A stretch of DNA of 64,000 bases from Pomphorhynchus laevis (Eukaryota; Acanthocephala; Palaeacanthocephala; Echinorhynchida; Pomphorhynchidae): the NCBI GenBank assembly GCA_012934845.2, contig WNNJ02000666.1, forward strand, positions 27,955 to 91,954, in the 5' to 3' direction. The translations under genes and the position numbers were made by a program. The notes under the pieces are model-generated. The model worked only from the letters and a program-made list of their open reading frames with translations. It did not search any database and was not told the origin of the DNA. This document shows positions 5,001-63,620 of this stretch, one piece after another (the stretch's first letter is position 1; each line of letters starts with the position of its first letter).

Positions 5001-8000
5001 TAAAACAAAATTTTAATAAGTTACATTTTAAAACAAAAAATTATTTTTATATTTAAATATATTATTTTAAAATATATTATTATTTTTAAATATCATCTAG
5101 AATAATAACAACTATTTAGAAGTTTACATGTAAGCATTAATCTATCTGATTTTAACTTGTGAACTACTTATTTTTTTAAAGTAGTTCACAAGCAAAACTA
5201 GCTGTTTTTTTAACAAGCAATAGGTTTGCTAAATACTTCTCTCTAAATAGACTATATATGCGATGCCCTATGACACTCCAGTACCAGGATATAAGAACAA
5301 TGTTGTAAATACCCTGAGGCTATGGTCAGCCAAAGCCGGTCAAAGCTTCAACCTTTCATTCTGTAAGTTAATGTTTATACTTACCACCTTCTATATAAAT
5401 TTATACCATAGTCAACGACGGAGATTACATAAAGGCGATTGAGCAGAGCAGTGTAGCCGAAAACATTTCAAGGGTACTTTACCCAAATGACAATGTTGTA
5501 TCTAAACGGGGTTTATTTAAATCTAATTGATAAAATTTTTAGATTATTGAAGGAAAGGAACTGAGACTAAAACAGGAGTACTTTATGGTATCAGCAACAA
5601 TTCAAGACATAATTGCTAGATTTAAGCGTACAGAAAGCTACGATTCGAAACAATCTTCATATAAAAACTTTGCAAAATTACCGGATAAGGTTTTATCGAT
5701 TTATTACTTTTAGTTTAAGTGATAATTTTCTTAGGTTGCTATTCAATTAAATGATACTCATCCGGCACTTGCTGTACCTGAGTTGATGAGAATTTTAATA
5801 GATTTAGAAAGACTTAGTTTTCAGGAAGCTTTCGAAATAACTAAAGCGACATGCGCATACACAAATCATACCCTGTTACCGGAGGCATTAGAAAGATGGC
5901 CAGTTTCTATGATGCAGCACTTATTACCGAGACATCTACAAATAATATATTTGCTTAACATGCAGCATATTGAAGTAAGTAATATTAAATATTTTAACTC
6001 AATATTTTTTATTATTATATAAATAATAAAAATTAAAGAAATAATATATTTATTATTTTTATTAAAAATAATAATAATCATAATTTAAAGTTATGAACTT
6101 TAAAAACATATAAACGTAACTTCCGTTTGATTCATTTGTTTTTAATTTATTCTCTAATTACATTCCAAATTTATTTAATATGAATAAATAACATATTTTT
6201 GTTTTTTTAACATATTTTTGCATGAACATTAGAGCGTTGTAAAATTATTTAAATAATTTATAATATATAATATACTTTATATTTAAGTACATTAAAAGTA
6301 TATTAAAGTATACTTATATAGTATACTTTATATTATATTACTACTACTTTATAAAGTTGTATAATATATATACTACTATTAATTTATATCGTAAAGATGA
6401 CATATTTAAATTTACAAGAAACATATTTTTTTGTAATATCACCTTTTAAGTAAAAGGTGTTCCAATGGGTGGTAATAGTAGCCCAATTATAGCTGACTTG
6501 TTTTTAAGCTTTATAGAATATGAATTTGTTCATAACTGTGTAAAAACTAAATCTAAACAATATAAATATATGTTTCGATACATTGATGATATATGTGTAT
6601 TTAATTCTAATAATTTTTATTCAATTAGTGAGCACATTTATCCAGAAAGCCTTATTCTTAACAAAACCAATATTAATGATAAAGAAGGTGTATATCTAGA
6701 TATGAACATTAAATTAACATTAACTAAAACTACTATTAATTTATATCGTAAAGATGACATATTTAAATTTACAAGAAACATATTTTTGCATGAGCATTCA
6801 TGCATACCATATAATATAAAATATAATACATTAAATAATGAAATTTTAAGAATTGCAACAATATGTAATGATATTGGCTTTCTTCAAAATCATTTAAATA
6901 ATTTAATAGATACATATTTTAAACTAGGTTACTATAAAAATAACATCAAGCAGAAAATAGTAAAATATATAAATCAACACAATAATATAAAGAATAAATT
7001 TAAACTCTTAAGTGGCAAATTTTTATGGATGGATAATAAATAATATACTTTGTATTAGAATAAGATACTAGATAGTTTTATCAGAGGAAATACATCATTA
7101 GCATGTATTTGGCCCCGCTGCTATGTTGGGTAGATGAGTTAGGGGCCGAAACCTGATAGCATAGCAGTTCCTCCTGATGACCTCTAATTCTTATTCTGAT
7201 ACAACGTCTGTTATTTATTAGTCAATTCATAAAAATGAAGTTTATTTTAAATTTCAATTTTTTATTTTAACTTGATTTAAATTATAGAAAATCTAAAAGC
7301 AATTATTTATTTTAGTATTTAATTATTAAATGTTGATTTAGCATTATTATGTGTTGTTTATTTTATAATTATATATAATACGTAGACTCAGTTAGCTGAT
7401 TTGATTTAATATTTTGATATCAACTATTATAATTTATATTATAATAAGCGAATAATTGCAACAAATAAATATAATATAAATATAATATAATATAAATATA
7501 TTAATAATAAATATAATAAATATATATGTATTAGAATAAGATACACTATATAATCAAATTTTATCGGAGGAAATACGTCATTAGCATGTATAAGGTCGAG
7601 GAATAGGAGATTTGAAATTATTGATAATTATTCATATAATAAATATAATTATATAATTATATTAATAATATAATATATATGCTATATGGTAGGATTTATC
7701 TCAACGCGATTTTAAACAGCTCGATAGTTGCCAGTGGCGTTTTGTTAAGCACATTGTTAGTGTTTCTTTTAAAACATCATCCAGAGCAGTAGCGGCGTTG
7801 TCAGCACTTACTCATTGCTCCCTCTATATACAACAGCACCTTAATCTTCCGATTACTTGGAATTTCACACACCACAGAGATACACTCGCTATCAAATACA
7901 AGCAGCTAGATCCGGACTTATTTTTGACTCTTGCATACTTACAAACAGCGTGTCGCAATTCATGCTCTATCAAACGACCTATGGTCTGGCATATTTCCCT

Positions 8001-23302: not shown

Positions 23303-23315
23303 TATAATAATTTTA
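23303..23315 (+). repeat. Left target site duplication of the ribozyme array
   Basis: tataataatttta, identical to 24894-24906 on the other side of the array. Confidence 0.8.
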
Positions 23316-23374
23316 AGGAGAGTGAGACCATTCCGCGTGAATTTATTGTAAAACATGTAAGCCAGACGCGAAAT
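23316..23374 (-). repeat. Inverted fragment of the ribozyme repeat unit
   Basis: About 59 bp that is the reverse complement of the unit segment beginning tttcgcgtctggctt and ending ctcactctcctt. It carries the acgcgg variant and the cttaaa edge of the 304-bp unit type, not those of the 306-bp type. It forms a near-perfect hairpin with 23399-23458. This matches an inversion made during target-primed reverse transcription. Confidence 0.8.
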
Positions 23375-23616
23375 AATGACGAAACGGCATTCGTCATTCT
23401 TTCGCGTCTGGCTTACACGTTTTACAATAAATTCATGCGGAATGAAATCACTCTCCTTCATGATAAAAGATAGCCTATACTAAAGAGACCTGCGCTGGCA
23501 TTTGCCAGTGTTTTTGCTAATGATCCTTTTTGGTGAAGCTATAGTACTGATTTAGTACTCTATGATGTTACTAGAAAATTTTCTAGTACATCATTCACAT
23601 TGATTCATTCATTGAT

Positions 23617-23695
23617 TGCCGTCTGCCAGTCCTCCTCTGCATCCAGTAGTGGGAGGGATCTGGCACTGATGAGTCATTGTAATGACGAAACGGCA
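23617..23695 (+). ncRNA. Type III hammerhead ribozyme, copy 1
   Basis: Stem III tgccgt (23617-23622) pairs with acggca (23690-23695). Predicted cleavage is after C23623 (GUC). Stem I is tgccag (23624-23629) with ctggca (23660-23665), extended by cctcc (23631-23635) with ggagg (23652-23656) across a small internal loop. The core is CTGATGA (23666-23672). Stem II is gtcat/atgac with loop tgta. The second core strand is GAAA (23687-23690). All invariant core bases are present. Because stem III is open, this is topology III. Confidence 0.9.
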
Positions 23696-23920
23696 TTCGT
23701 CATTCTTTCGCGTCTGGCTTACACGTTTTACAATAAATTCACGCGGAATGGTCTCACTCTCCTTAAATAAAAGTTATCCGATATTAAAGAGACCTGCGCT
23801 GGCATTTGCCAGTGCTTTTGCTAATGATCCTTTTTGGTGAAGCTGTAGTACTGATTTAATACATTATGATGTTACTAGAAAATTTTCTAGTACATCATTC
23901 ACATTGATTCATTCATTGAT

Positions 23921-23999
23921 TGCCGTCTGCCAGTCCTCCTCTGCATCCAGTAGTGGGAGGGATCTGGCACTGATGAGTCATTGTGATGACGAAACGGCA
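23921..23999 (+). ncRNA. Type III hammerhead ribozyme, copy 2
   Basis: Same fold as copy 1: tgccgt at 23921, cleavage after C23927, CTGATGA at 23970-23976, stem II gtcat/atgac with loop tgtg, GAAA at 23991-23994. Intact. Confidence 0.9.
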
Positions 24000-24226
24000 T
24001 TCGTCATTCTTTCGCGTCTGGCTTACACGTTTTACAATAAATTCATGCGGAATGGTCTCACTCTCCTTCATGATAAAAGATAGCCTATATTAAAGAGACC
24101 TGCGCTGGCATTTGCCAGTGCTTTTGCTAATGATCCTTTTTGGTGAAGCTATAGTACTGATTTAGTACACTATGATGTTACTAGAAAATTTTCTAGTACA
24201 TCATTCACATTGATTCATTCATTGAT

Positions 24227-24305
24227 TGCCGTCTGCCAGTCCTCCTCTGCATCCAGTAGTGGGAGGGATCTGGCACTGATGAGTCATTGTGATGACGAAA
24301 CGGCA
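24227..24305 (+). ncRNA. Type III hammerhead ribozyme, copy 3
   Basis: Same sequence as copy 2 in all helices and core bases. Predicted cleavage is after C24233. Intact. Confidence 0.9.
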
Positions 24306-24530
24306 TTCGTCATTCTTTCGCGTCTGGCTTACACGTTTTACAATAAATTCACGCGGAATGGTCTCACTCTCCTTAAATAAAAGTTATCCGATATTAAAGA
24401 GACCTGCGCTGGCATTTGCCAGTGCTTTTGCTAATGATCCTTTTTGGTGAAGCTATAGTACTGATTTAGTACACTATGATGTTACTAGAAAATTTTCTAG
24501 TACATCATTCACATTGATTCATTCATTGAT

Positions 24531-24609
24531 TGCCGTCTGCCAGTCCTCCTCTGCATCCAGTAGTGGGAGGGATCTGGCACTGATGAGTCATTGTGATGAC
24601 GAAACGGCA
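24531..24609 (+). ncRNA. Type III hammerhead ribozyme, copy 4
   Basis: Same fold. Predicted cleavage is after C24537. Intact. Confidence 0.9.
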
Positions 24610-24836
24610 TTCGTCATTCTTTCGCGTCTGGCTTACACGTTTTACAATAAATTCATGCGGAATGGTCTCACTCTCCTTCATGATAAAAGATAGCCGATAT
24701 TAAAGAGACCTGCGCTGGCATTTGCCAGTGCTTTTGCTAATGATCCTTTTTGGTGAAGCTATAGTACTGATTTAGTACACTATGATGTTACTAGAAAATT
24801 TTCTAGTACATCATTCACATTGATTCATTCATTGAT

Positions 24837-24893
24837 TGCCGTCTGCCAGTCCTCCTCTGCATCCAGTAGTGGGAGGGATCTGGCACTGATGAG
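24837..24893 (+). ncRNA. Hammerhead ribozyme 5' part at the right array edge
   Basis: Stem III 5' strand, cleavage triplet (C24843), complete stem I and CTGATGAG are present. The unit then stops at the right target site duplication, so stem II and GAAA are missing. The complementary 3' part (atgacgaaacggca) sits at the left edge, 23376-23389. Confidence 0.85.
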
Positions 24894-24906
24894 TATAATA
24901 ATTTTA
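24894..24906 (+). repeat. Right target site duplication of the ribozyme array
   Basis: tataataatttta, identical to 23303-23315. Confidence 0.8.
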
Positions 24907-37632: not shown

Positions 37633-39228
37633 TTAGTAAAAGTACAATCCGCTCAATACAAACGCATTGAGCACAATTACACATCTACCCAAACCGGCAT
37701 TTAATCGTCTCGCTCTTTCAAACACACGTAGCCCTTTTCTAACTAATTTGAAACACCTGGCCATATCTGACTTGGGATGCAAACGTGGTTCGAAAACGGA
37801 TCCCAGAATGCGCACCCGACGCTTTCGATTCCCTGGAAGAGAATCGAGGAGACGAGTGTGCTTTCCAGGACGCCGAAATCTGTAATGAACAAAATTGCTG
37901 TTCGCTGGGTTCAAAGACAAGCCAAACTTCGCTAAGCGATGAGCAACAATGTCCATTACAGACTTCATTCGCCTTTCAAACCTTGCATCCGACAGAGTAT
38001 TTCTCTTAAATGCGATCAAGATGTCGTCCGCATAAATGATGGCGTGGGTGTTCCTATCCAAAAGACCCTCCAGAACTCCCCTCGTCACTATCATATAAAT
38101 GATAGGAGACAGAGGTGAGCCCTGGGGAAGTCCTTTGTTGAGATGATAGTACTTACCCCCGTCATCATCCAAGTAGAAAGTTCTTGCTTTTAATATACCC
38201 AGGACACGATGCAACAAATTACTCGGTATACCATCACTGGTTAACGTTGTAACTATTGCATCATGTCCCAAGTTGTCGAAGGCCGCCGACACATCCAGCG
38301 AATAGAGAACTGCAGGTTGTCTATCGCTGGTGAGAAAACTCTGCATGGACCTTACTACCTTAACAATTCCCCTTCCTCTACGAAATCCGTGAATGTGGTC
38401 TCCCAACATATCACGATCTTCGTAGAATCGGGAAAGGATCCTAGCAAGAGCTCTCTCATACACCATAACAATATTATTAGATATTGTTATGGGTCTTGTG
38501 TCTTTAGCATTCGACACCCATCTTCCCTTCGCAAGGAACACCACTTTTCCGACCGCAATATCACACCAAGATGCTAATGGTACTCCTAGCATCTTGGCAG
38601 CAATATCCGTTCGAACCCTATCGACGATCAATTTGGTCGCAGCAGTACATGCCGAAGACCCGTTAGATGAAGTCTTTGACACGACTGGCCACGCACTCAA
38701 AATGCCCTCGATAGTGATGTCTTCTTGCGAATTGTCGATGGTCGAAAACAAGAGTTCCATACGGATCTTCATCATTTTCCTCTCTGTCCATCCTTCAGCA
38801 TTGGCTAGGTGTTTCATTTTCATTTCATGAAGTACATTCCCAAAACCCTTAGAGGATATCCACTTAGAAGCCGCTGCCCTCCAAGAACGGAAGGTGGTTC
38901 GCCTAATGGTTTGCCACCATTCCTTTGAAAAATTCTTGTAAGACAGCAACTTTTTAGCGTCTACCCTCTGCTCCAACTCTTGAATATCATTCTTGAGCAG
39001 AGCCATTTGAGCGATTCTCTGAGACGAAGGATTCGCATCCGTTCGTAAACCCCAGAGAATACGTTTCAAATGAAGAGCTTTAGGAGTGTACTTGATGTTG
39101 GGCGGTCGTTTAGTAGTTAAAAATTTATTTGCATTACTAAAAATTTCATTATTTAAAATTAATAGAGAATTTGATTCTTTTAATTTATTTGTAAAATTTG
39201 TCAAAAACGTCTCATCTAAAATATTCAA
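37633..39228 (-). CDS. Non-LTR reverse transcriptase (531 residues)
   Basis: RT domain spans residues about 230-470: RPITISNNIVMVYERALARI, YSLDVSAAFDN (motif A Asp), GLPQGSPLSPIIYMIV (motif B), and AIIYADDILIAF (catalytic YADD). Residues 1-220 are a basic linker typical of the region between endonuclease and RT. The frame ends VLSGLYFY without the usual C-terminal zinc motif. The catalytic boxes are intact, so loss of activity is probably recent or due to the separated endonuclease frame. Confidence 0.88.
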   Translation of the reverse strand: MNILDETFLTNFTNKLKESNSLLILNNEIFSNANKFLTTKRPPNIKYTPKALHLKRILWGLRTDANPSSQRIAQMALLKNDIQELEQRVDAKKLLSYKNFSKEWWQTIRRTTFRSWRAAASKWISSKGFGNVLHEMKMKHLANAEGWTERKMMKIRMELLFSTIDNSQEDITIEGILSAWPVVSKTSSNGSSACTAATKLIVDRVRTDIAAKMLGVPLASWCDIAVGKVVFLAKGRWVSNAKDTRPITISNNIVMVYERALARILSRFYEDRDMLGDHIHGFRRGRGIVKVVRSMQSFLTSDRQPAVLYSLDVSAAFDNLGHDAIVTTLTSDGIPSNLLHRVLGILKARTFYLDDDGGKYYHLNKGLPQGSPLSPIIYMIVTRGVLEGLLDRNTHAIIYADDILIAFKRNTLSDARFERRMKSVMDIVAHRLAKFGLSLNPANSNFVHYRFRRPGKHTRLLDSLPGNRKRRVRILGSVFEPRLHPKSDMARCFKLVRKGLRVFERARRLNAGLGRCVIVLNAFVLSGLYFY

Positions 39229-50280: not shown

Positions 50281-50323
50281 TCGATAATGAATCATTATCA
50301 ACTATTTAAAAACTTTACATATT

Positions 50324-50743
50324 ATCAAATCAGCTAACTGAGACTACGTATTTAATATAATTTTAAAATAAACAAAACATAATAATGCTAAATCAAAATT
50401 TAATAATTAAATAATAAAATTAATAATTGTTTTTAGATTTTCTATAATTTAAATCAAGTTAAAATAAAGAATTAAAATTTAAAATAAACTTCATTTTTAT
50501 GAATTGACTAGTAAATAACAGACGTTGTATTAGTCAAATCAGCTAACTGAGACCACGTATTTAATATAATTATAAAATAAACAAAACATAATAATGCTAA
50601 ATCAAAATTTAATAATTAAATAATAAAATTAATAATTGTTTTTAGATTTTCTATAATCTATATCAAGTTAAAATAAAAAATTGAAATTTAAAATTAAAGT
50701 TATTTTTATGAATTGACTAATAAATAACAGACGTTGTATCAGA
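50324..50743 (-). repeat. Tandem duplication of the Penelope-like tail (210 bp x 2)
   Basis: tcaaatcagctaactgagac starts at 50324 and 50534. The two 210-bp copies are nearly identical and match the reverse of 7210-7410. Confidence 0.8.
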
Positions 50744-58758: not shown

Positions 58759-59536
58759 AATTTAACTTGAATGCATCTGTGAGCTGAAATTCTTCGGGTT
58801 GTGGCACAATATTATCCTCACAGGTATTGTTCCTATTCTTGATACAGCAGGACGCTACTAATCAGTCTAGGTGGGTCTCATCAGCTGCTGACCCAGACCT
58901 ACATTTCACGTTTCGACCCTTATTATCTGCTTTCTCCGTATACTGATGCTGATCGGATTTGAACTCAGGACGTCTGTATCTTGATTACACGCTACATCTA
59001 CTTGTCTGGCTGCTCCAGTTGTGTAGATATACATTGTTGTATATTACATTCAGTAGGGGATCGTATTCTAACGATCAATTAGAAACCTACCTAATTGTGT
59101 GATCCGCTAGCCGGATCACTGTTTTTCATGCTGCCACTTGCAATGAATGTTTTTAATTTAACTTGAATGCATCTGTGAGCTGAAATTCTTCGGGTTGTGG
59201 CACAATATTATCCTCACAGGTATTGTTCCTATTCTTGATACAGCAGGACGCTACTAATCAGTCTGGGTGGGTCTCATCTGCTGCTGACCCAGACCTACAT
59301 TTCACGTTTCGACCCTTATTATCTGCTTTCTCCGTATACTGATGCTGATCGGATTTGAACTCAGGACGTCTGTATCTTGATTCAACGCTACATCTACTTG
59401 TCTGGCTGCTCCAGTTGTGTAGATATACATTGTTGTATATTACTTTCAGTAGGGGATCGTATTCTAACGATCAATTAGAAACCTACCTAATTGTGTGATC
59501 CGCTAGCCGGATCACTGTTTTTCATGCTGCCACTTG
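58759..59536 (+). repeat. Two 396-bp tandem repeats upstream of a LINE
   Basis: aatttaacttgaatgcatct starts at 58759 and 59155. The copies are nearly identical and run up to the 5' leader of the LINE (ORF1 at 59631), like promoter monomers of some LINEs. On the minus strand each unit has a Pol III B-box-like word gagttcaaatcc (58955-58966, 59351-59362), so a tRNA-derived SINE is an alternative reading. It also carries gggtc-gaaa and ctgatga-gaccc words (58873-58919), the second copy having one core change. Confidence 0.85.
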
Positions 59537-59630
59537 AAATCTTTATTGAAAAAGATTTATTGGACACAATCTTTATTGAAATCTACACGAGAGACTTTAC
59601 TCTGATAAAGTCTGAATATACATACATATA

Positions 59631-60791: not shown

Positions 60792-63620
60792 CTGATTTGG
60801 GATCTGAAGTGTGTCAGATTGCTAGAGATGATATTATTACTCGCTCTGGTGTGAATAAAAGTCATAGTATATTTTATTGTAATGTTCGGAGCTTGTTACA
60901 GAAAGTCGATGAGCTAAAGTTTAGGATCGAGTCTGTTAATCCAATTATAGTTGGTATTACAGAATCTTGGCTTAATTGTGATGTATCCGATGCTGAGGTA
61001 TCCATCCCAGGCTATTCTTTGTTCCGTAGTGATCGGATAGGGGGTAGGGGTGGTGGCGTAGCTCTCTTTATGAGAGACGAAGTTAAGGTGCGCGTTTTGA
61101 GTAAGTCGTCTATTGATAGAGTTGAGAGTTTGTGGTGTCAGGTGAAGTTTGATAACAGCTCACCCATCATACTGGGTCTTGTGTATCGTGCTCCTAAGGC
61201 AATATCTAAGAAACTCATTGAAGAGATAGAGTTGTATACGCGAGGAGATTGTGATACTGTGATAATTGGGGATCTGAATATGCCAGATGTTGAATAAACT
61301 TCGAATACGGTTCTTCCTACTTGTGATAGTGAATCTTGTGACCTTATGGAGTGTTTTGCTTATTGTGGTCTTGCTCAATTTGTTGATTTACATACTCGCT
61401 TTTCAAGTTGTAGTTCTTCCCTTCTTGATCTTTGCCTATCGACAAACAGTCAATTAATCAGTAGTATCCAATATGATTCTCCTGTTGGTTTGTTTGATCA
61501 CTGTGTAGTTAAAGTTTTGCTAAATTTACAATGTTTTTCGGGCGAACTGTGATGCTATTACATCAAAGCTGCATAGAGTAAGTTGGCCTGATCCGGCTGT
61601 TGTCGGAGTTGACGAGGCCTGGGATCATTTTCGCGTGACGCTTTATTCTCTAATGGTAAAATTCTCACCTTTGAAGTCTAATACTAGTCGGAAAAGCGCT
61701 CGTTGGTTTGCTACTGAGCTGGCTACTGCGATGAAGGCTCGTGACTTCAGTTTCAAATGCTTTAAGGGTGGGTTTTGTGAATATGGTGTTTATAAGCAGG
61801 CGAGAAATTTCTTCAATTCTTTAAAGCGACATAAGCGCTATTTATTTGAAAATGGTCTAGCTCATAGTTGTAGACATGATCCCAAAGCTCTCTTTCTATA
61901 TGTGAATAGTAGTAGGAACGCTAATAAAACAATTGGCCAATATTTTGATAGCGTTATTGAAGACGACCTTGCTGAGATGTTCTCAAGGCATTTTTACTTG
62001 TACAAAGAGACTACAAACGAGTATTCTGAACCTATCCAGAACAGTGAAACGATAAGAGGTGCTAGTGTTTCATATCCTAGTTCAGACATAGCTAATTTGA
62101 TAACTCCCGAGAAAGTTTTAGCTGAACTGCATCGTCTTAAAGAGACAAACTCCAAAGGTGCTGATTTGTTACCTTCGATATATCTTCGTCGAATAGCAGA
62201 CTCAATATATACACCACTTTGTAACATATTTCGACAATCTATTATTGATACGAATCTTCCAAAAGAGTGGAAACAATCGATCATTCACCCCATCTTCAAA
62301 AAGGGTGATAGATCTTCAGTAGACAATTATAGACCAGTAAGTATTACTTGCTTATGTTGTAGAATGTTAGAGCGAATTATACATGGTTATATGGTCAAGT
62401 TTTATAGTGAGAATAATGTAATAGCTTCTGAGCAACATGGTTTCCGTAAGGGTTATTCGACAGTTACTAATCTACTCGCTGCCCATCTTGATTGGTCAGC
62501 TAATAAAGCCGTATCAATTGCTACTGACATCATATTCTTCGATTTCTCTAAGGCATTTGACAGCGTAGACCATAGACTCCTCCTAAATAAACTAGAGAAA
62601 AGTGGCATTCCATTCTTGCTTGTTAGATGGATTGAATCGTTTTTAAGCAATCGTAGTTATTGTGTGCATGTAGATAATTTTTACTCTTCTTCGCGGCCAT
62701 GTAATATAGGGGTGCCTCAAGGTTCAGTATTGGGTCCATTGTTATTTAGTGTCTACATCAACGATATCCCGGAATTTATTGATTCTCGGATGCTTTTATA
62801 TGCAGACGATTTGAAAATCTGGCGGGCAATTCGTTCACCCAATGATATAGTCAAACTGCAACGGGATATCGATGAAGTCGAAAATTGGGCTCTGCTCAAT
62901 AGGTTGATTGTAAATATATCAAAATGCAAACATTTACGTGTTCGTGGCGGAAATGCTCAATCTTTAGTTAATTATAGCTTTCAAAGCAGTGATATAGAAC
63001 GAGTGAACAAATATAAGGACTTGGGAGTGTGGATAAACAGTGATTTGAGTACCGTCACACATACTGAACATGCTTGTTCAAATGCGTTGGGGATAATCGG
63101 TCAACTTCGACGCACCTTCATTGCACTTAATCAATTTGCCCTACGTCCGCTAATCTTTGCTCATGTGTTGAGCCGTCTTCTATATGCTGCGCCGTGTGTG
63201 TATCCCCGAAATTCAAAAGAACATATTAGTTCAGAGAGGGTACTTCATAGAGCTACCAAGCTAGCACCGCAACTGAAATTTTTGTCGTACCCTGATTGAT
63301 TAAAAGCACTTAGACTTGAGACTGTCACGTGGACCCGCCGGTACATCGATATGAGTATGGTCTGGCAAATTCTTAATGATTTGGATCATCCACTTCGAGA
63401 TTGTCTTCATTTGCGCTCATCCAATATCCTCCGAGGCCATGGTTTAACCCTGCGACGTGAAAGGATAAGAAAATCACGAGCTGTCCAATTTGATCGGCGA
63501 GTTGTATCTCTGTGGAATAGGCTTGGAGAGTCAACAGTGTGCAGTAGCAATATCAACGAATTCAAAAAGAAATTACGGATGGAGAATGCCATGGGGAAAG
63601 CTGCTTTTCCGTATTTGTGA
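60671..63620 (+). pseudogene. CR1-like LINE ORF2 (endonuclease-RT), three lesions
   Basis: Endonuclease: [117 protein letters not shown]-terminal: HKDLGVW-type block (YKDLGVWINSDL) and LRGHGLTLRRERIRKSR. The frame is broken by TAA at 61295-61297, a one-base shift in a T run near 61533-61540, and TGA at 63297-63299. The catalytic boxes are intact, so the copy is young. Confidence 0.88.

Follow-up and report, generated by a model that had tools for sequence, protein, structure and literature searches.

Type III hammerhead arrays in Pomphorhynchus laevis: candidate retrozymes with Penelope-like insertion ends

A tandem array of type III hammerhead motifs lies within a 64,000-nt stretch of the Pomphorhynchus laevis genome (contig WNNJ02000666.1, positions 27,955 to 91,954; hereafter the window), and we consider it likely that this array arose by insertion of a type III retrozyme that is non-autonomous and is moved by a Penelope-like reverse transcriptase. 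The case is built on sequence, namely the motif, its covariation, the copy ends and the duplications. The array is an inserted element at 23316-24894 bounded by 12-bp target duplications (Table 1). A first-pass annotation of the window had described a retrozyme-sized array, and this description holds, while the insertion itself, its inverted left arm, its target duplications and its Penelope-like ends had gone unnoticed. What appears to be new here is the occurrence of type III metazoan retrozymes with Penelope-like insertion ends. That the host is an animal, as had been supposed, is borne out by a Wnt gene in the assembly (three exon matches on one contig, best E 3.7e-59). The cuticle family PF00379, which is typical of arthropods, yielded no candidate, although such a negative does not by itself establish absence.

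The hammerhead array and its sister families

A descriptor for the type III hammerhead (stem III of at least 5 bp, UH at the cleavage site, stem I of at least 5 bp, CUGANGA, stem II of at least 4 bp, and GAAA) finds exactly four complete hammerheads in the window, with H17 at 23623, 23927, 24233 and 24537. Successive motifs are 304, 306 and 304 nt apart, so that the four intact hammerheads first reported from this DNA are all where they were said to be. Neither the minus strand of the window nor 150 dinucleotide shuffles, scanned on both strands, gave any descriptor match. The invariant core (CUGANGA...GAAA, with UH at the cleavage site) and the three helices, also part of the original description, are present in all four copies, with stems I and III of 6 bp each; stem III is open, and stems I and II are closed by loops, as in the type III topology. 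Folded without constraints, the 79-nt motif has the hammerhead as its minimum-energy structure (-34 kcal/mol), and the z-scores for two motif copies are -3.57 and -2.95, with 1 and 2 of 200 shuffles folding equally well. The irregularity that had been pointed out in stem I is present, but RNAfold draws it as a U-G pair plus an AU bulge, not as U against GAU.

Table 1. Coordinates of the inserted element, its hammerheads and its boundaries in the window
Feature	Position	Strand	Remarks
Target-site duplication ATAATAATTTTA, left copy	23304..23315	.	Exact match to 24895-24906
Target-site duplication ATAATAATTTTA, right copy	24895..24906	.	Exact match to 23304-23315
Inverted left arm, head-to-head partial unit	23316..23375	-	Outer end is site A (after CTCTCCTT)
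Tandem array, about 5 units of 304/306 nt	23376..24894	+	TRF, BLAST; 41% GC; no long ORF
Type III hammerhead 1	23617..23695	+	Predicted cleavage after C23623; descriptor; held-out covariance model 43.3 bits, E 2.1e-8
9-bp inverted repeat AATGACGAA-ACGGCA-TTCGTCATT	23681..23704	+	Predicted rival of stems II and III after transcription
33 nt between sites B (after TTTTAC) and A (after CTCTCCTT), one unit	23732..23764	+	3' ends, 39 loci and window
Type III hammerhead 2	23921..23999	+	Predicted cleavage after C23927; descriptor; held-out model 42.6 bits, E 3e-8
Type III hammerhead 3	24227..24305	+	Predicted cleavage after C24233; descriptor; held-out model 42.6 bits
Type III hammerhead 4	24531..24609	+	Predicted cleavage after C24537; descriptor; held-out model 42.6 bits
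Hammerhead 5, cut off	24837..24894	+	GUC at 24843; array stops within stem II; right outer end is site C

One feature of the unit counts against our reading, in that a hairpin downstream of the ribozyme is predicted to beat the ribozyme fold. When the second copy is folded with 16 more downstream bases (95 nt), the optimum shifts to the AATGACGAA/TTCGTCATT hairpin at -37.1 kcal/mol. Any cleavage is therefore probably cotranscriptional.

Within the window, no hammerhead reaches the Rfam gathering scores, and the Rfam type III covariance scan that had been proposed as a check did not deliver the hit expected of it: RF00008 scores 20.5-21.3 bits (E 0.19-0.33 in 1.8 kb), under its gathering score of 48.5. 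A held-out covariance model was made from two other families of the same genome, L095 (C46) and L094 (C19), which were aligned with the structure supplied by hand, and it contains no sequence of the 304-nt family. In the window, this model picks out just the four sites, at 42.6-43.3 bits with rough E-values of 2-3e-8, and its next best match there has 15.8 bits (E 0.15). Applied to 30 of the 96 genome loci (L001-L096), it gives copies of the 304-nt family up to 46.6 bits and six type I loci (L082-L085, L092, L093) at most 20.7 bits. L094 aligns to the whole of RF00008 at 39.5 bits (E 2.8e-6), which also falls short of the gathering score, and neither L095, which represents a 369-nt family, nor L096 has any Rfam match at E<=1.

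Both L094 and L095 fit the type III topology, L094 being drawable also as type I with a 3-bp stem I; their helices were picked by hand after a descriptor scan, and unconstrained folds agree in outline. Across the three families, 14 helix positions give 42 cells, every one of them Watson-Crick, and nine of the positions show two-sided change. By eye, loop 1 has ATCCAG..GT in common among the three families, and the longer form ATCCAG..GTGGG, which served as a search pattern, occurs in the 304- and 369-nt families and is absent from L094.

The genome searched comprises 249 Mb in 3,242 contigs. Here the core pattern of the 304-nt family matches 1,121 times (571+550), with a reversed-pattern control of 0, and a second type III pattern, from which the 304-nt family was excluded, matches 65+47 times (control 0), in arrays at 369-nt spacing. 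A looser core pattern without the 304-nt family gives 971+961 matches (control 1). Five small pieces from these looser-pattern families include two of type I (L092, L093), the two that fit type III (L094, L095), and L096, which fits neither and is probably a shortened piece. Viral contigs gave three pattern matches, which were taken as chance from the surrounding sequence. Type I hammerheads coexist in this genome, both as at least 65 matches to RF00163, 62 of them above the cut-off (best 73 of 40,608 candidates scored), and as arrays with 296-nt units. We observe that this 296-nt tandem family (L082-L089) lies head-to-head at some loci and has recurrent 3' ends near unit 153 (few loci), and that another type I family, L092 (C13), has 351-nt spacing, with matches across about 12 kb of a 32-kb contig.

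Insertion anatomy and recurrent copy ends

TRF resolves 5.0 copies of 304 nt at 23376-24894 with 96% matches. The first array unit is without its 5' half, with a partial motif, GAAACGGCA, at 23381. BLAST of the unit places the left arm at 23312-23383 on the minus strand (unit 15-86, 97%), where its ends overlap the duplication and the hairpin, and the head-to-head junction falls inside the hairpin. No ORF lying fully within the array exceeds 59 aa, and reverse transcriptase or GIY-YIG endonuclease coding is absent from the element, which is therefore at most a non-autonomous passenger. The interval 23316-24894 also contains no purine run of 12 and no TGGTATCAGA, which we take to be the tRNA primer-site motif. 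With units of 304/306 nt, 41% GC and its 1,121 core matches, the family lies within the range expected of metazoan retrozymes, which have tandem units of 150-450 bp, a GC content under 50% and numerous copies.

Junctions were sampled at 39 loci (L009-L047) and the window, the 40 best-matching of 1,794 candidates, and the sample is probably biased to young copies because only best-matching candidates were covered. The 39 loci lie on 39 other contigs and their arms are mostly short. L009 nearly duplicates the window locus (99.6% in a 2.6-kb alignment including the left flank, with six units versus five) and is not counted as independent. A flank word of at least 8 nt is common to both sides in 26 of 39 records (25 of 38 without L009) versus 12% of mismatched pairs, in a comparison in which the shared word need not abut the junction and L017 was left out.

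The outer 3' ends of these copies recur at two sites, whose exact boundaries are our reading of the end listing by hand. Site A, read as after CTCTCCTT (unit 83), takes 31 outer ends (BLAST ends 82-97), and site B, read as after TTTTAC (unit 50), takes 26 (BLAST ends 49-60), one-arm loci included in both; the two are about 33 nt apart. Among 25 independent two-arm loci, 19 combine A with B, two combine A with C (the window and L043), three have A with another end and one has neither, and there are no A/A and no B/B pairs. Had each end been chosen independently, 19 mixed pairs in 19 would have a probability of 1.9e-6. Thus 19 of the 25 loci have their arms head to head and a tail at just one end, while the window copy itself has A at left and C (GATGAGT) at right, not B. 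Close opposite-strand pairs, judged by eye among the matches listed, are all head-to-head in the 304-nt family (8/8; 1,121 matches in total) and in the 369-nt family (8/8; 112 in total). Together, the A/B ends and the duplications read as Penelope-like hallmarks.

Unit 247 is the first base past the predicted cut (C246|U247), and 12 of 63 scored arm 5' ends fall at unit 246-248, where 0.6 would be expected (P 1e-12); excluded from these counts are L042 and nine fragments from the listing, one of them L017, whose sequence begins at a contig end, and the BLAST end positions are uncertain by a few nucleotides owing to chance matches. Widening the interval to unit 246-261 takes in 27 of the 63 ends (3.3 expected, P 2e-18, a descriptive value for an interval chosen post hoc), with the other 36 falling outside it and none at unit 231-245. 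Counted per locus, ends at 246-248 occur in 8 of 37 and ends at 246-261 in 19 of 37, and the 12 exact ends stem from those eight loci, four from L045 alone and two from L028. From the 246-261 cluster, 21 arms run to A or B, spanning 0, 1, 2, 6 or 7 whole units plus a fixed end piece. The window arms start at unit 15 and unit 1, neither at the cleavage site.

The natural reading of this cluster would be that copying runs off at an RNA 5' end made by the ribozyme. Stalling at the stem I hairpin should leave ends on that hairpin's other side, and an unrelated transcription start exactly at unit 247 may be an alternative source of the 5' ends. The insertion ends suggest that the ribozyme cuts in vivo and sets the 5' end of the template. 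Multi-unit arms that start at the cleavage site would be explained by partly cut linear multimers no less well than by circles.

Known retrozymes and Penelope-like elements

The window element has much in common with metazoan retrozymes of the non-LTR kind (PMC7229834; Cervera and de la Pena 2020). These too are described as multi-copy tandem repeats with a single hammerhead in each unit of about 170-400 nt, a GC content under 45%, duplications exceeding 4 bp, and neither LTR, PBS nor PPT. However, these retrozymes are described as type I (PMC7229834, PMC7761336, PMC11722881), in agreement with the earlier remark that hammerheads of animal repeats are mostly type I, and circular RNA has been demonstrated for them (PMC7229834), whereas the window element has type III hammerheads. 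With type III in place of the published type I hammerhead, it is a variant and not a strict member of the metazoan retrozymes. The 304-nt family offers a type III retrozyme case in an animal. Plant LTR retrozymes (Cervera et al. 2016, PMC4918200) share the type III hammerhead and a non-autonomous nature with the window element, but they are described (PMC7229834, PMC7761336, PMC11722881) as 600-1000 nt long with LTRs, PBS, PPT and 4-bp duplications, none of which we find here: the duplication is 12 bp, and there is neither a purine run of 12 nor a primer site. It seems to us an evenly balanced proposition that two or more families of this lineage (304 and 369 nt) have type III topology and that plant and animal retrozymes cannot be told apart by the topology of their ribozymes.

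Animals were already known to have hammerheads of type III, which are reported from termite (as isolated motifs), dipteran and Drosophila pseudoobscura genomes (PMC7936874), and insect elements that carry them are mentioned without detail in PMC7761336. The openly accessible article texts that formed our scope yielded no type III tandem retrozyme in an animal. The first-pass view that such an array would be unusual in an animal genome stands for the retrozyme-sized array and not for the hammerhead type. The hammerheads of termites and dipterans, and those of the HDV-like RNAs of toad and termite, are described with a long, interrupted stem I, as here (PMC7936874). Yet the termite motifs are isolated and have a GCCR/YGGC loop pairing (PMC7936874), unlike the tandem mobile arrays found here and the loop-1 ATCCAG..GTGGG of the 304- and 369-nt families.

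The insertion ends link the family to Penelope-like integration. Like the window element, Penelope-like elements (PLEs; PMC3846280, PMC11167929) are described as having inverted arms set head to head, a pair of 3' start sites some 30-40 bp from each other, targets rich in AT, short duplications and a hammerhead in the repeat. They differ in that the window element has no long ORF, and in that PLE hammerheads are described as minimal type I (PMC7761336) where those of the window element are type III. PLEs are reported to have inverted head-to-head pLTRs, a 31-bp 'tail' that is optional at one 3' end, and duplications of 8-10 bp (PMC3846280). In a lizard PLE this tail is the stretch between two reverse transcriptase start sites, a signature that its authors regard as exclusive to PLEs, and cutting and extension take place on both target strands (PMC11167929). 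Sites A and B, about 33 nt apart, match this closely, and the stretch between them (Table 1) would be the counterpart of the tail. The A/B end rule also bears on the origin of inverted Penelope copies, and it is checkable in other genomes by sequence. Against our reading count some findings from the lizard PLE, as reported in PMC11167929: the start site is the same for both target strands, hammerhead cleavage is dispensable for insertion in vitro, and no RNA-seq read is reported to start or stop at the cleavage site.

Proposed mobilisation, its alternatives and the search for a helper

The mechanism that we infer takes in catalysis, the polymerase, dual-strand priming and any circular RNA intermediate. 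Transcripts of tandem copies would self-cut after the GUC of every unit, and the cut RNA would be taken up by a Penelope-like reverse transcriptase. An AT-rich target would be nicked on both strands with a stagger of about 12 nt, whereupon the first target strand would prime at RNA site A and the opposite strand at site B, about 33 nt upstream. Each cDNA would extend to the ribozyme-made RNA 5' end or halt early, and the two cDNAs would be joined head to head, with target duplications on either side.

Self-priming, in which the cDNA would fold back at its 3' end on a hairpin and serve as its own template, a route proposed for Penelope palindromes (PMC3846280), is fairly unlikely in our view. 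The head-to-head junction of the window copy does sit in the AATGACGAA/TTCGTCATT hairpin, and palindromes at PLE junctions have been published (PMC3846280). Yet self-priming predicts no fixed arm end, and the occurrence of one A and one B outer end in 19 of the 25 independent two-arm loci instead suggests a second priming event at a defined RNA site; this constant pairing favours two separate priming events. Who mobilises animal retrozymes is left open in print as 'LINEs or PLEs', with no proven helper named in the accounts cited (PMC7229834, PMC7761336, PMC11722881), and the window holds RVT_1 reverse transcriptase ORFs at 37633-39228 and 61635-63299. Target-primed reverse transcription of the LINE type, by an enzyme other than a PLE's, would be in keeping with these ORFs, with the proposal of LINEs as possible helpers (PMC7229834, PMC11722881) and with the 6 of 26 B ends (hand count) that lead into at least five A's. 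It nevertheless strikes us as quite unlikely, given paired internal start sites, the signature termed unique to PLEs (PMC11167929), and 31 A ends that show no common A run or simple repeat.

Ordinary satellite DNA, its units spread by unequal crossing over and the hammerhead a passenger or relic, would suit the varying unit number of the arrays (five here versus six in the near-identical L009, and a run of about 12 at C516) and a ribozyme conserved no more than the rest of the unit. Among 70 aligned units the 79 nt show no excess conservation of the kind that selection on the ribozyme would leave, with a variation of 0.031 in the hammerhead versus 0.026 elsewhere. We regard this explanation as very unlikely all the same: the sampled loci are spread over 39 other contigs, most with short arms and with flanks sharing words, and unequal exchange accounts for neither the recurrent 3' ends nor the 5' ends at the cleavage site. 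That the array derives from a viroid-like or delta-like circular RNA, integrated or exogenous, and is not a retrozyme is extremely improbable, with hammerheads confined to one strand, a longest ORF within the array of 59 aa, and genomic copies as numerous as the 1,121 core matches.

A Penelope-type fragment at window 6465-7043 (+) led us to a family of ORFs reaching 908 aa (L052-L081, L091) that is Penelope-type by eye and very abundant, with 24,426 first-look candidates and many at 99-100% identity among the best 150 scored; in L091, the ORF has an N-terminal GIY-YIG-like stretch (by eye). We take this abundant element to be the one named 'Naiad'. Pfam gives no family for a 695-aa piece of the ORF. 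No helper element with matching ends was found; the abundant Penelope-type element ends in unrelated sequence, and its 3' end shows no likeness to site A or B. The top GIY-YIG family match (at least 75 matches, best 150 of 795 candidates) lies on a contig, L090, that we read as bacterial.

Several observations stand apart from the array. L090 (C1660) carries UvrC-like and glutathione-synthesis-like ORFs by eye and could come from a symbiont or a contaminant. The 3' UTR of the Penelope-type element has a structured-looking region with CTGATGA that matches no Rfam family at E<=1, and two tandem 209-nt copies at window 50320-50739 resemble, by eye, the reverse complement of this element's 3' end. 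A COX1 search gave at least 12 matches (18 candidates scored), with internal stops in the standard code in the rows listed, and three of these loci look decayed when read with the invertebrate mitochondrial code; several such decayed-looking copies (L048-L051) are probably nuclear mitochondrial insertions. Finally, a 396-bp unit is present in two tandem copies, with 98% matches, at window 58759-59540.
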